Shown here: one piece after another, positions 14,481-26,067 of the stretch
Layout of the letters: each line of letters starts with the position of its first letter
How positions within the stretch are numbered: the stretch's first letter is position 1
Origin: an uncultured Myxococcales bacterium
GTDB lineage: Bacteria; Myxococcota_A; Polyangia; Palsa-1104; JAEUJZ01
Assembly: GCA_937868485.1 (NCBI GenBank)
Contig: CALMML010000333.1
Location: 1-57,892 of the forward strand
Direction of reading: 5' to 3'
Length of the DNA stretch: 57,892 nt
Made by a program: the position numbers and the translations under genes
Notes under the pieces: generated by a model
Database searches by the model: none
Told to the model about the DNA's origin: nothing
The model's input: only the letters and a program-made list of their open reading frames with translations

Positions 14481-17400
14481 TCAGTCCACCACATCCACCG
14501 GGGTTCCCAGCGGCACGGTGTCAAACAAGCGCTGGGCGAACAGCTTGGGGAAGCGCACGCAGCCATGCGACTGCGGAAAGCCTGGCAGCGGACCCGCGTG
14601 CATGCCGATGCCGCCAAAGATGCGCATAAAGTACGGCATCGGTGTGCCTCGAAACGTCGCGCCTGGCGGGGCTGGCTGATCGTGGTTGTCGATGTTGGCA
14701 AGGAGCACGTCCCCGGCATCGCTCACGTAGTCGCCGTACCGACCCGAGACATACTGCGGCACCTTTTCCAGCACCGAAAAGCTGCCTTTGGGGGTCTTGT
14801 GGCTTACGCGACCACTGCAAACGGACGACTGAGCGACGGTTCTGTCGCCGTCCATAAGCTCAGCCTGCTGCCTGCCGAGGTGGATCACGATGCGAGGACG
14901 CAGCAGCTCATCTTGGACCGCCCAAAAGAAGTCGCCGCCTTTGTCCAGATCTCCAGCCCGTGCGGTCACGCTCCCCGAAGCAGACTCCGAGCAGCCAGCG
15001 GCACCAAGGAACAGCCCAAGCGACCACAGAGAGAGCCGCTGCCGCCACCGACCACTCCGCAGCGACAGCCCAAGTCCAGCCAGCAGCAGCGCCAAAAGAC
15101 CGCCGCTCGGCCCGGCGTCGGACCGTCCCAGCGGAGCCACCGCACATGCGCCCACGACAAACGGAAGGCCGATCTCGCTGCGCTCACCGACAAAGTGAAC
15201 CACAGGCTGCTGGTCCAGTAGGGTGCCGCCGACTCGGACCTCGATGGTGGCCCGACTGCCGCGCGGACCCTCCGCCAGCAGCGTGCGCTCGTAGCGACCG
15301 TGGCCAACGTCCCGTACCTCGCCGAGCCACGCCCCGCGATCGGATGTGATGGACACAGGCAGACCCGGCCCAAGCGGCTGCCCAAGCAGATCGCGCGGCG
15401 TCACTGTAACCGTCGTCGTTTCTGCGTAAGGGGCTGCGATATCCTGGCTGACTCCGACGTCAGACATGAGCGCGCTCAGGCCATACAGCTTCTCGCCACG
15501 CAGGCGGCCAAAGACGGCTTCGACGTTGAGCTGGCCAAAGCCACGCCGGGGCCCGTAGCCTCGCGCAAGAGGCTGGCTCGCCGTCGTGCGCAGCAGCTCA
15601 CGCACTTGGGTGGTCGTCAGCGTAGGGCGTGCTTCCAGCATCAGCGCCACCGCACCCGCCACATGCGGCGCAGCCTGTGAGGTCCCGCGCAGCACACCAT
15701 GCAGGCCATCATCGGCAATCAGCAGCCCGGGATCGTGCGGCAAGGCAAACGACGAGCGCGGATCGCTCTGAAGCGCTGCGGTCGACAGGGCCGACAAAAT
15801 GAACTCACCGGGGGCCACGATGTCGGGCGCAAAGCCGCCGCTTCCCAGCGGGCCTCCCGATGAAAAGGTCGCGACCCGACCCAGCTCGCGATCGAAGACG
15901 GCTTCCTTGCCATCGTTTCGCTTCCACGCCAGGCGACTGCGCAGTGCCCCCACGCTGATCGCCGAGGCAGCCGAAGCCGGAATCCCGATATAGCCATCTG
16001 GGTCCAAGTGACCGCGCAGCGCGAGGTCCAAGTCCGGGCTCTGATCCACTTGCCACAGGTCATAGCGGCGGGTCTTGCCTTGGATCGACACATGCCAGTC
16101 GCCGGGCTTGGGTGGCTCGCTGCCGGTCACGCCGCTAAGATGAATGAGCACGCCGCGCTTGCCGGTCGCCGACTGGTCGCTGGCATCAATGACCGCAGTG
16201 CCTTCCCCCTCGAACGTCGCTTTCAGGCTCTGCCCCATGGGGACCTCGAAGCGGCGACCACTTGGCGAGCGCAAGCCAACGGTCAGCTCCGCTGCGCCGC
16301 CGACCTTTGGTGGGGCACTGGCGTCGTAATACAGCTCCAGCAGCGCGAAGCTCTTTTCCGCAAGGACATCGAGCCGCGTAACCTTCAGCGTCACCTCGTG
16401 AGAGCCCAAGAGCAGTGACGCCCCTGCGTGGATGTCGTAGTCGCCAGAGTTCCCGGATGCCGTGACCAGGACGCGCCCAGGTCGGTCAGCAAACAGCTCA
16501 TCCAGCGCCACTTCCATGAGGCTGCTGCCGTCGTGTAGACCCCCAGGTCCGCCCAGGCTTAGGTTCACCACCACGGGCTGCTTGTTTTCCTCTGCGCGAT
16601 CGAGGCAGAAGCGAACTCCGAGCAGGATGTCGACGTCGTCAAACGTCACCTCATCACGGGTGGCCTTGACGATGCACAGGGTCGATTCGGGCGCGATGCC
16701 GACATAACGACCAGCGGGAAAGCGAGGACTCGTCGCCAAGCCACTGGATGCAGCGATGCCCGCAACGTGGGTGCCGTGCCCATTTGTGTCGACCTGACGA
16801 ATCGGAACCGGCGGCTGCATTCCCTTTGATTCGTAGTCGAGCACCTCATCGATGTCCTTGGCGGTGCTGACCTGCATCCCACCATAGTCGGGAAACTCTG
16901 GGTGGCGACCGTCGCGCGCCTCGGTACTGCTGAGCAGATAGCCGATGCGGGTCTTGCCCATGGGGTCGCGCAGATCGGCGTGTCGGAAGTCGGCCCCCGT
17001 ATCCACGATGCCGACCAGCACGCCCTTGCCGCGCGCCAGGTACTTGTCGCTGGCCGCCTGCGCGCCGATCAGGTTGCGGGACTGATCGAGCAGGGGACGC
17101 AGGCTGTGCAGGCCATCGATCCGCGTGACCACAGGGGAAGCCAGCAGCCCACGCAGGTCCGCAGCCGACACGCGCACTTCTGCCACCGTGCGGCTGAGCG
17201 GCGTCATCGACATCCCCGCAGGCAGCAGCCCGGGTCCAGCAAGGCTCGTCCGAACGAGCAGCCGCAGTCGCCCCGCTTCATCCAGGGCCCGCCGACTAGA
17301 CAATGGCATGCCAGCCAGATACGCCAGCACCTGGGCACGCGCCTGCGCGGTCAGTCGGCCCGTACCCAGCTGGGCATAGTCACTTCCAGATAGGACCGGC

Positions 17401-17570
17401 GGTCCCGCCACAGCAGCAGGCGGTGAAGCAAGAGCGGGCGCGACCAGGACCCCAGCGCTGGACGGAGCCGGACGAGGCGCGGCCCCACTTGGCATCGCCA
17501 CCGAGAGCAGCGAACAGCAGGTCACCTGCGAAGTTAGGCGCATCACCACAGCAGCCAAAGCCGACCTCAT
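14481..17570 (-). CDS. Fusion: subtilisin-like (S8) protease, MYXO-CTERM-like tail, internal lipobox, L,D-transpeptidase (YkuD)
   Basis: A 1029-residue exported protein. Residues 1-30 are signal-like. The S8 catalytic triad is clear: D190 in GIVDTGADF, H265 in NGHGTHVAG, S631 in GTSQAAPHVAG, with a large insertion between His and Ser. A beta-rich region follows (about 700-800). Residues 805-850 look like a MYXO-CTERM tail: a Cys, a hydrophobic helix (GGLLALLLAGLGLSL), then Arg-rich SGRWRQR. Instead of a stop, the chain continues into SLWSLGLFLGAAGC, a lipoprotein-type signal with its Cys at 860, and then an L,D-transpeptidase domain with SHGCVRF (Cys1004) and a preceding conserved His. No ATG, GTG or TTG gives the second half a good separate start. 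Proteolysis outside the cell and peptidoglycan cross-linking or lipoprotein attachment are inferred from the domains. Confidence 0.8.
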   Translation of the reverse strand: MRSALAAVVMRLTSQVTCCSLLSVAMPSGAAPRPAPSSAGVLVAPALASPPAAVAGPPVLSGSDYAQLGTGRLTAQARAQVLAYLAGMPLSSRRALDEAGRLRLLVRTSLAGPGLLPAGMSMTPLSRTVAEVRVSAADLRGLLASPVVTRIDGLHSLRPLLDQSRNLIGAQAASDKYLARGKGVLVGIVDTGADFRHADLRDPMGKTRIGYLLSSTEARDGRHPEFPDYGGMQVSTAKDIDEVLDYESKGMQPPVPIRQVDTNGHGTHVAGIAASSGLATSPRFPAGRYVGIAPESTLCIVKATRDEVTFDDVDILLGVRFCLDRAEENKQPVVVNLSLGGPGGLHDGSSLMEVALDELFADRPGRVLVTASGNSGDYDIHAGASLLLGSHEVTLKVTRLDVLAEKSFALLELYYDASAPPKVGGAAELTVGLRSPSGRRFEVPMGQSLKATFEGEGTAVIDASDQSATGKRGVLIHLSGVTGSEPPKPGDWHVSIQGKTRRYDLWQVDQSPDLDLALRGHLDPDGYIGIPASAASAISVGALRSRLAWKRNDGKEAVFDRELGRVATFSSGGPLGSGGFAPDIVAPGEFILSALSTAALQSDPRSSFALPHDPGLLIADDGLHGVLRGTSQAAPHVAGAVALMLEARPTLTTTQVRELLRTTASQPLARGYGPRRGFGQLNVEAVFGRLRGEKLYGLSALMSDVGVSQDIAAPYAETTTVTVTPRDLLGQPLGPGLPVSITSDRGAWLGEVRDVGHGRYERTLLAEGPRGSRATIEVRVGGTLLDQQPVVHFVGERSEIGLPFVVGACAVAPLGRSDAGPSGGLLALLLAGLGLSLRSGRWRQRLSLWSLGLFLGAAGCSESASGSVTARAGDLDKGGDFFWAVQDELLRPRIVIHLGRQQAELMDGDRTVAQSSVCSGRVSHKTPKGSFSVLEKVPQYVSGRYGDYVSDAGDVLLANIDNHDQPAPPGATFRGTPMPYFMRIFGGIGMHAGPLPGFPQSHGCVRFPKLFAQRLFDTVPLGTPVDVVD

Positions 17571-23853: not shown

Positions 23854-25482
23854 TTAGCGCTCTGCGTAGCGGTGCTGTTCGGCCACGATGCGAGCCAGCC
23901 ACGCCTTGGGAAGTCCGTAGTCCGGGTTGAGCGCCAGCGACTTTTCAAAGCAGACAATCGCGTTGGCGGTGTCTTCCGCTTGGTAGTAGCAGATGCCCAT
24001 GTTGCAGAACGTGACCGGATGCTCTCCGAACATGTCCATCGACAGCTGGTTATAGCGCAGCGCCTCTCGCGGACGCTTGAGCGACAGATAGACCCGGCCT
24101 AGCTCAAACGGCAGATCGCGTCCGAGCGGATAGAAGTTGGTCCAGGTGTTCTCCAGGCTCATCATCAGCTCGACACGCTGCGTCTCACTGAGGGTGTGCG
24201 CGTTGTCCAAGATGATCTTTTCGTAGTCGAAGAACACCTGCGGATCGTAGTGCGACAGGCGCATCAGCTCCATCACACCATCGAGCGGCAGGTTCGGCGC
24301 GGTCGTCCGCACGCTGTTGAGCAGGGTGTAAAAGTCGTACGGACCAAAGACATCCATGCTCGACCGGAATGCGGTCATGGTGTCGGCAAACTGCTCTGCC
24401 GATCCACCGATGATGTACGCCACGGTCTTGAGGCTCATCTGCCGCTGATTGGTCGCCAGATAGTGTCCACCGAGCGAGCGCACAAGCTGTCCCATCGCGT
24501 GATAGTTGGACATCGTGGACAGCGCACCGTGAAACTGCACGTACTGACCGTGGATGTAGAACAGCTCATCTTCGTGGGTGTAGCCCTTGTCCGATGACAG
24601 GATAAAGAGCCGATTCCCAGAGATGCGCGACAGCCGCCGGATGGTCCGCATCGCCCCCACTGGGAACACCAGCGTTGTGTCGCTGAGCCGGCCCTGATAG
24701 CCAGCCAGGACTTGCTCGATTGCGGCGTCTCCGTAGTAGCCGTCCGGCGAGATGGGCCGCATCTCCCAATCGAGATGGAAGTTCGACATCACCTCGGGAT
24801 TGACCAGCTCTTCTCCGATCGGCTCACTGTGGCGAGTCGTCACCAGACACTCATTGATCTTGCCGCCTTCGAACCGGAAAAAGTCCTGAAGCAGCGAATC
24901 AAAGATGTAGTTGGCCAGGACAATGATCGGGTTCTTGATCGACTCCTGAGAGAGCAGATCTCCCGACGGATAAAGCCGGATGTGCTCATCGCTTTCCAGG
25001 TCGAACAGACCCAAGTTCAGAACACCCTGCTCTACGTAGTCCTGAAACAGCTTCTGCTTGGCCCACGACTTGACGTTCGTCTCTGTGAAGTCGGTCATCA
25101 CAAAGCGAATGTCCAGGTGTTTGAGCGAAGAGCTGTTCTTGATGGCCAGGAACTTCTTCAGAAACAGATAGGAAAAGCGCCCGCGTCCGGCGGCCAGCTC
25201 GACGATGTAGATCGGCTGGGACGGATCGATGCGGCAGCTAAAGCGATCGCTCAGACAGTCACGTACGTACTGCCACACCACCTGTGCATAGGACTGCGCG
25301 ATGAACGGATTGCTGGTGACATAGGAAGGAACAATCCCAGAGTCCCAGGCGCTGATTCCTCTTTGTTCATAGAAGTCACGCGTGAGCTTCCACATGATCG
25401 ACTGCGAAAAGCGCTTCCCTTGTTCCAGAACGAACGGGGGTAGCTCGGCAGCCTCGGTGTTGTTGGTGTTCTCCTCACTCAT
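23854..25482 (-). CDS. SAM-dependent methyltransferase (NDUFAF7/MidA-like) with C-terminal TPR
   Basis: A 542-residue cytosolic protein. Residues 85-220 look like a class I methyltransferase: YIVELAAGRGRFSYLFLKKF is the SAM-binding motif I, RFVMTDFTE a second strand, and IIVLANYIFDSLLQDFFRF resembles the NEfFDALP block of the NDUFAF7/MidA arginine methyltransferase family. The C-terminus (about 455-535) holds two tetratricopeptide repeats (ELGRVYLSLKRPREALRYNQ, NMGICYYQAEDTANAIVCFEKSLALNP), suited to binding a protein partner. The start is supported by CGGAGAG about 9 nt upstream. The target protein is unknown. The gene is convergent with the kinase gene and divergent from the vWA gene. Confidence 0.7.
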   Translation of the reverse strand: MSEENTNNTEAAELPPFVLEQGKRFSQSIMWKLTRDFYEQRGISAWDSGIVPSYVTSNPFIAQSYAQVVWQYVRDCLSDRFSCRIDPSQPIYIVELAAGRGRFSYLFLKKFLAIKNSSSLKHLDIRFVMTDFTETNVKSWAKQKLFQDYVEQGVLNLGLFDLESDEHIRLYPSGDLLSQESIKNPIIVLANYIFDSLLQDFFRFEGGKINECLVTTRHSEPIGEELVNPEVMSNFHLDWEMRPISPDGYYGDAAIEQVLAGYQGRLSDTTLVFPVGAMRTIRRLSRISGNRLFILSSDKGYTHEDELFYIHGQYVQFHGALSTMSNYHAMGQLVRSLGGHYLATNQRQMSLKTVAYIIGGSAEQFADTMTAFRSSMDVFGPYDFYTLLNSVRTTAPNLPLDGVMELMRLSHYDPQVFFDYEKIILDNAHTLSETQRVELMMSLENTWTNFYPLGRDLPFELGRVYLSLKRPREALRYNQLSMDMFGEHPVTFCNMGICYYQAEDTANAIVCFEKSLALNPDYGLPKAWLARIVAEQHRYAER

Positions 25483-26067
25483 CGCACTCTCCGGGAATCC
25501 TTGGGAATGGGTGGTCCGGGGTCTATGGGAACCAATGGTTACAACAGTCGGATCGCCCTATCTTGTCATGGTAAGCGCGGAAAGGTACAGGCAAATTTTG
25601 TCTTTCCCTTTGCATGAAAAGCGCAGTGGATCACGAAGGGATTCCGCGACATTCCTACACGGGATCACATCAAACTTTCCGACGGGAACTCGCACAATTC
25701 CCATTCACCAAGCAGCGCAGACAGACTGTTTCACGGCGCGCGTAGGAACGACTCCTACAGCATTCCCAGAGGCCTCTACAGAGACACATGTGTGTGGATG
25801 TGAAGCAGCGTAAGGAGTCCTCACCAGATCGGCGATTGGCTGCGCATGTGCGGATAGGAAGACCACAAAGTTTCCGTCGGTAAGAGCATTCTAAGTGCGC
25901 CAAAGGAATGAACTTCTGATCTCATCGAAAATCTAGATTCAATCGCGATAGACGTTGTAAGGTCTTTGATACGATCGGGACAAAATACCTAGACCAGATG
26001 CACAGACCACTACGGAGGGGCCGTGGGGCTTTGCATAGATGAATTCTTGGGGCCAAGGAGAATCCAC
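25483..26067. other. Long divergent intergenic region
   Basis: About 585 bases between divergent genes, with AT content higher than nearby. It is rich in GATTCC, ATTCC and GGGAA words on both strands (for example near 25500, 25641, 25652, 25690 and 25760), like degenerate relatives of the tandem repeats at 33743 and 57817. The region must hold the promoters of both flanking genes; a unique assignment was not possible. AAGGAG at 26055-26060 is the ribosome site of the vWA gene. Confidence 0.4.

Follow-up and report, generated by a model that had tools for sequence, protein, structure and literature searches.

The window analysed in this study, a stretch of 57,892 nucleotides from an uncultured Myxococcales bacterium, contains a gene in which a subtilisin-like S8 protease with a MYXO-CTERM-like tail continues in frame into a lipoprotein-like signal and an L,D-transpeptidase, and this gene is almost certainly a real fusion rather than an artefact. 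The fused frame is unbroken in each of the three genomes examined from the genus, namely the window's own genome (G000) and two further genomes, G001 and G002, the proteins of which are 71% and 81% identical to that of the window, respectively; a scan of a genome collection holding one genome per species (84,980 species) returned only these two. Because the same open frame is found in all three genomes, the frame in the window is considered to be real, and the one polypeptide proposed in the original prediction, which was made from the window alone, is borne out by a single frame that is open in the window and in both orthologues. The layout of the gene is as follows, with the transmembrane segments assigned from hydropathy.

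14481..17570, reverse strand: the fused gene, 1029 amino acids, S8 protease, MYXO-CTERM-like tail, lipoprotein-like signal and YkuD L,D-transpeptidase in this order, with intact orthologues in G001 and G002
17481..17570, reverse strand: N-terminal signal peptide region, residues about 1-30, with a hydrophobic stretch kept in three species
15501..17030, reverse strand: subtilisin-like S8 domain, residues 181-690, triad D190/H265/S631 (Pfam PF00082, 5.2e-37)
15189..15446, reverse strand: Ig-like domain (Invasin_D3-like), residues 709-794 (Pfam PF09134, 2.4e-8; score 34.8 bits, cut-off 33)
15036..15149, reverse strand: MYXO-CTERM-like tripartite tail, residues 808-845, with Cys809, a hydrophobic segment at about 821-837 and an Arg cluster at 838-845
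14991..15059, reverse strand: lipoprotein-like signal, residues 838-860, comprising the Arg cluster of the tail, a hydrophobic segment at 846-859 and Gly859-Cys860
14490..14897, reverse strand: YkuD L,D-transpeptidase domain, residues 892-1027, with H991 and S1001-H-G-C1004-V-R (Pfam PF03734, 4e-17; score 63.6 bits, cut-off 23.4)

The window frame begins with ATG and is a single open frame on the reverse strand; the protein may start at M10 rather than M1, since G001 has no ATG at M1. The complete S8 triad that had been predicted is supported by the profile match listed above, and its three residues, together with N374, are conserved in all 16 aligned S8 relatives. In a phmmer comparison with solved subtilases, the best match of the S8 domain was CspB (1.1e-24). 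The cysteine, hydrophobic helix and Arg-rich end that were expected after the protease are indeed present, the cysteine being Cys809, and the chain reads through into AAGC (Cys860) and then into a domain with SHGCVRF (Cys1004) that Pfam recognizes as YkuD, again as proposed. From the Ig-like domain to the transpeptidase, the chain passes through Cys809, a hydrophobic stretch free of charged residues, RSGRWRQR, another hydrophobic stretch and AAGC860. Cys809, Gly859, Cys860 and Cys1004 do not vary among the three fused species, nor does the SHGC motif, in a protein whose linker (residues 810-875) shows 30-47% identity between fused species and whose flanking domains (S8, 60-700; transpeptidase, 876-1029) show 74-87%. 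AlphaFold models of the three fused sequences had a mean pLDDT of 33.6, and no structural inference was drawn from them. Elsewhere in the window, positions 24001-26000 have a G+C content of 0.552, compared with 0.58-0.67 in the other 2-kb steps.

The unfused arrangement is seen in the next genus. Six genomes of the family were examined, and the fusion occurs in the three of the genus, while G003 has two genes; in G004 and G005 no transpeptidase match was found and the S8 matches were weak. The protease and transpeptidase genes of G003 overlap by GTGA, in which the stop codon of the first meets the GTG start of the second, with GAGG upstream of this start. The protease ends in ELAGCSYAASGPSSGHNGPIWKLVLLGMALLGLGRWRRQRAEAVQ-stop and the transpeptidase begins with VKQAGRAASFPAALRRVCVLGVTMALAC, and the two basic clusters are separate, with RWRRQR before the protease stop and KQAGRAASFPAALRR after the transpeptidase start. 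The separate transpeptidase gene has the lipobox ALAC at a position matching the Gly859-Cys860 region of the window. Since each signal in G003 has its own basic stretch and the fusion has a single one, the comparison supports the proposal, already made for the window, that one Arg stretch serves both the tail and the lipoprotein signal in the fused species. Relatives carrying the two halves as separate genes, with a stop and a start in between, had been named beforehand as a sign against the fusion. Such a relative exists in G003, but because three species carry the fused frame it represents the unfused arrangement and does not refute the fusion. The three fused species group together as a clade of the S8 tree (100/100), which adjoins G003 (100/100) and lies among relatives without the transpeptidase fusion, and no transpeptidase was found in the S8 neighbourhoods of G006-G010, G012 and G014 within the fetched stretch of up to ∼6 kb per side. 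Fusion within the genus would be the simplest history of this arrangement; alternatively, the fusion may have occurred in an ancestor of the family and later been split in G003.

The distribution of the transpeptidase (window 14484-14945) is very patchy. Strong relatives were found in four of 289 class genomes and two of 282 phylum genomes and only in the family of the window, the other matches being weak, and the nearest NCBIfam models belong to the PRK06132 group. This patchiness and the nearest models hint at transfer of the transpeptidase from elsewhere, the origin of which was not found among the class (289) and phylum (282) genomes searched.

The internal tail was compared with known MYXO-CTERM tails in several ways. 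Cys809, which stands in an 'AC' rather than a 'GC' context, is the sole invariant column in ten aligned tails. An uncharged run extends from +10 to +29 after this cysteine and is followed by four Lys or Arg residues in ten; the tail is not C-terminal, as the chain continues for another 192 residues beyond this run. The spacing from Cys to Arg is 28-30 residues in the three transpeptidase fusions, 30 in G003 and 22-28 in the other listed tails. The NCBI MYXO-CTERM model TIGR03901 (cut-off 20 bits) did not match the internal tail of the window at E values up to 10, and it matched none of the six fused proteins tested (G000, G001, G002, G090, G012 and G016); four of five unfused tails were matched with 13-21 bits, one of them above the cut-off. 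With a first profile made from ten tails of the window's own genome and seven S8 tails, the window tail was indistinguishable from its shuffles. A later profile comprised 100 distinct tails of S8 relatives, excluding near relatives, and was applied with 1000 shuffles per tail. Here, the window tail scored 14.6 bits, close to the unfused tail of G003 at 14.7, and the other two transpeptidase fusions scored 18.8 (G002) and 15.6 bits (G001); none of the 1000 shuffles reached the score in any of the three fusions, nor in G012 (17.4 bits) or G090 (12.8 bits), which carry fusions to other partners. Eight unfused near relatives ranged from 6.5 to 21.0 bits. By this measure, the tails of the transpeptidase fusions are no worse than those of unfused relatives, in a test that is limited because the same Cys-TM-Arg rule picked both the training and the fused tails, so that profile and classification are not fully independent. 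The tails of three fusions to TonB scored 7.7 (G041), 10.1 (G016) and 7.5 bits (G033), with 9, 6 and 4 of 1000 shuffles as high, respectively. These tails may be fading after fusion, since they reach 7.5-10.1 bits compared with 15.3 in G025, where TonB is separate.

The second signal was compared in the same species. The lipobox region reads LGAAGC, LAAPGC and LLSVGC in the three fused species, with a proline at -2 in G002, which is unusual for a lipobox. The predicted lipoprotein signal is internal in the fused species, whereas in G003 it stands at the N-terminus of the separate gene. When a rule describing both signals was drawn up by hand with the sequences already in view, the window and G002 passed both of its parts and G001 failed the lipoprotein part; no weight is placed on this rule.

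The fusion is not confined to the transpeptidase. The S8 family profile matched in 141 of 317 class genomes at E values up to 1e-60, and tails were examined for one match per genome in 130 of them, of which 30 loci came from the search itself and the other 100 were retrieved. A Cys-TM-Arg tail, as defined by the author's rule, ends 107 of the 130 proteins; ten extend by at least 60 residues, nine have no tail by the rule, several of which nevertheless resemble such tails by eye, and four are cut by the end of the locus. Eight of the ten extended frames enter a recognizable envelope protein in frame, and four kinds of partner occur: the L,D-transpeptidase (G000, G001 and G002), TonB (G016, G033 and G041, with TonB_C matches of 7.4e-13, 3.6e-12 and 9e-18, respectively), a Cys-rich lipoprotein (G012) and an SppA lipoprotein (G090; Peptidase_S49, 1.7e-47), the last two of which rest on one genome each and may hide an assembly error. 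The TonB, Cys-rich and SppA partners are each entered via a hydrophobic N-terminal segment, and no lipobox follows the tail in the TonB fusions. In the two other extended frames, L145 (G524) and L162 (G275), 94 and 83 residues follow the tail; no hydrophobic segment or recognizable domain was seen in these extensions by eye, and they were not counted as fusions. They are perhaps the result of a recently lost stop codon or of assembly error.

Several partners also occur as separate genes. A counterpart of the Cys-rich lipoprotein of G012 lies separately downstream of the protease in G006, G007, G008, G009 and G010, and in G010 the first codon that could start it shares an ATGA with the stop codon of the protease. 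In G025, which belongs to the same genus as the three TonB-fused genomes, TonB is separate and its first candidate start likewise overlaps the protease stop as ATGA. The fused and unfused states require at least five changes on the S8 tree, on which the split G025 is sister to the fused G041, and for this reason fusion appears to have occurred several times, perhaps together with re-splitting. Judged from these frames, there is recurrent tail-to-head fusion of the S8 protease with envelope neighbours. In addition, an SxxxH spacing is found in the first hydrophobic segment of the TonB partner in L229 (G025), L230 (G016), L231 (G033) and L232 (G041), resembling the transmembrane motif of Escherichia coli TonB. 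That this spacing is kept in both fused and split forms suggests that the TonB partner is still functional.

Genes related to sorting and processing are present in the window's own genome. A myxosortase-family protease is encoded there (Mrt_core, 100.6 bits against a cut-off of 100; the cut-offs of MrtX, 137 against 180, and MrtP, 169 against 250, were not reached), together with LspA and two Lgt genes. Eight matches exceed the MYXO-CTERM cut-off in this genome, and the ten matches that were fetched are all located at the extreme end of the protein. The same genome carries, at C382:13000-21000 (L084), successive genes in a single orientation for a MYXO-CTERM repeat protein, a TSP3/OmpA protein and a second, diverged Lgt. 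As no acyl-transferase has been assigned to MYXO-CTERM in print (PMC11980579), this second Lgt is worth considering as a candidate for that role. In 18 of 19 genomes a relative of the second Lgt was matched, although certain weak matches may be ordinary Lgt, and an OmpA gene was adjacent in two of 12 loci, the flanks of which were at most 1.5 kb.

The best explanation of the fused S8-transpeptidase chain, to which an even chance is given, is post-translational cleavage into two products, with the topology, lipidation, cleavage and final locations inferred. On this account, a fusion particular to the genus joined the gene of a MYXO-CTERM-tailed S8 protease to that of a lipoprotein L,D-transpeptidase just downstream. 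The chain would be exported by Sec, the hydrophobic segment of the tail would cross the inner membrane from outside to inside, the short Arg loop would remain in the cytoplasm and the second hydrophobic segment would return as a lipoprotein-type signal, placing both enzymes outside the cytoplasm. This hairpin is proposed because a positive loop sits between two hydrophobic segments, and the extracytoplasmic location that both enzymes would need is consistent with it. Myxosortase would cut after Cys809, and Lgt and LspA would process the chain at Cys860, which would leave the protease lipid-anchored at the cell surface and the transpeptidase as a lipoprotein of the outer membrane, while the intervening hairpin would be lost. 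It is probable that the chain is cut at least once between the domains, and cutting at both sites is about evenly balanced. In favour of this reading are the retention of both signal cysteines in a diverging linker, the score of the window tail, which is like that of unfused tails, the Cys-to-Arg spacing, and the myxosortase-family protease, LspA and Lgt genes of the genome. Counting against it are the lack of a TIGR03901 match in the six fused proteins, the first profile, by which the window tail scored no better than its shuffles, the lower scores of the TonB fusions, and imperfections at both cysteine sites, namely the 'AC' at 809 and the proline in the lipobox of G002. The diversity of partners and the changes between split and fused states suggest that fusion carries little cost, as cutting of the finished chain would explain; where two products are parted in this way, near relatives would be expected to alternate between split and fused forms.

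If the chain is not cut, it would be a bifunctional membrane protein held by a permanent inner-membrane hairpin, with both enzymes in the periplasm and the tail and lipobox as relics. Relics of this kind would fit the lack of TIGR03901 matches in all fused proteins tested, the lower scores of TonB-fused tails relative to the split G025 and the fast evolution of the linker. However, Cys809 and Gly859-Cys860 have remained invariant within that fast linker, the window tail scores like unfused tails, and a shared bifunctional advantage is less likely with four unrelated kinds of partner; an uncut protein is regarded as unlikely. Somewhat less probable again is a single cut, in which either myxosortase frees the protease while the second hydrophobic segment goes on anchoring the transpeptidase, or LspA acts at Cys860 and leaves the protease with its transmembrane tail. 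A single cut would suit the TonB fusions, in which no lipobox follows the tail and one cut would be enough to part the two products, with TonB remaining on its own anchor; against it, the three transpeptidase-fused species conserve Cys809 and Cys860 equally.

Two products could also arise in translation, with the transpeptidase additionally initiated inside the frame and the fused chain forming part of the output. The original prediction held that no good separate start exists for the second half; this is secure for the window only, where the in-frame candidates at the junction have no evident ribosome-binding site, because possible starts at usable places exist in G001 (ATG844) and G002 (TTG834). 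Both of these precede the lipoprotein-like stretch, and the transpeptidase gene of G003 itself begins at an overlapping GTG. Nevertheless, no ATG, GTG or TTG column in residues 795-900 is common to the three fused species, which, with the lack of an evident ribosome-binding site in the window, makes internal initiation very improbable. Finally, deletion of a stop codon by an assembly or sequencing error, which had been raised at the outset and to which the draft state of the assemblies in the genus might lend some weight, is virtually discounted and, for the window, ruled out by the orthologues in G001 and G002, in that the same open frame without a stop is found in three species at 71-81% identity and a similar TonB fusion is present in three genomes.

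Post-translational cleavage of a joined chain has a parallel in the cytochrome b/c1 precursor FbcH of Bradyrhizobium, a single chain that is cut at an internal signal sequence; FbcH differs from the window protein in that signal peptidase I is involved and there is no C-terminal sorting signal. The window protein shares the tail of Cys, hydrophobic helix and Arg with the MYXO-CTERM/myxosortase pathway (TraA, MrtX), and its genome has a myxosortase-family protease, but its tail is internal, with 192 residues beyond it, and has no TIGR03901 match. Similarly, the positive n-region, hydrophobic segment and G-C at the predicted site are those of Lgt/LspA lipoproteins, except that the signal is internal, ∼840 residues from the start. 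An internal MYXO-CTERM is already known from MXAN_5598 of Myxococcus xanthus, where it is ascribed to a fusion of two genes; processing and surface anchoring of the N-terminal portion have been proposed for it, as has the ability of such tags to function within a chain (Guo, Haft and Wall, 2025; PMC11980579). In MXAN_5598, as in the window protein, the MYXO-CTERM lies mid-chain; however, an adhesin is joined there to an outer-membrane barrel with OmpA domains, and neither a lipobox behind the tail nor a protease or any recurrence is mentioned in the available text (PMC11980579). The genes of TraA and TraB, as described in the same study, overlap and encode a MYXO-CTERM protein together with an envelope partner, resembling in this the split G003 and G025, but TraA and TraB are different proteins in two reading frames (PMC11980579). 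A literature search, the coverage of which lay outside most subscription journals, found one study of an internal MYXO-CTERM and none describing a lipoprotein signal behind it. As far as this search reaches, three features are new: a tail-to-head junction with a lipoprotein signal, an Arg loop common to both signals, and repeated fusion of one protease family to four kinds of partner.

In its widest form, the proposal is of a natural polyprotein in which a C-terminal sorting signal and an N-terminal membrane signal are joined through one shared cytoplasmic Arg loop and two different membrane peptidases would release two lipid-anchored enzymes on opposite faces of the outer membrane. Such an architecture would arise time and again, each time with another neighbour, since sorting itself would part the products; this proposal is tentative and is put at a little below an even chance. 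If the chain is cut, a sorting signal evolved for the C-terminus can stand in for a stop codon and then remove itself, and neighbouring envelope genes can merge into one polyprotein. The fused proteins are ready substrates for asking whether myxosortase needs its signal at the end of the chain, and whether a lipoprotein signal beginning within a chain is accepted by Lgt and LspA.
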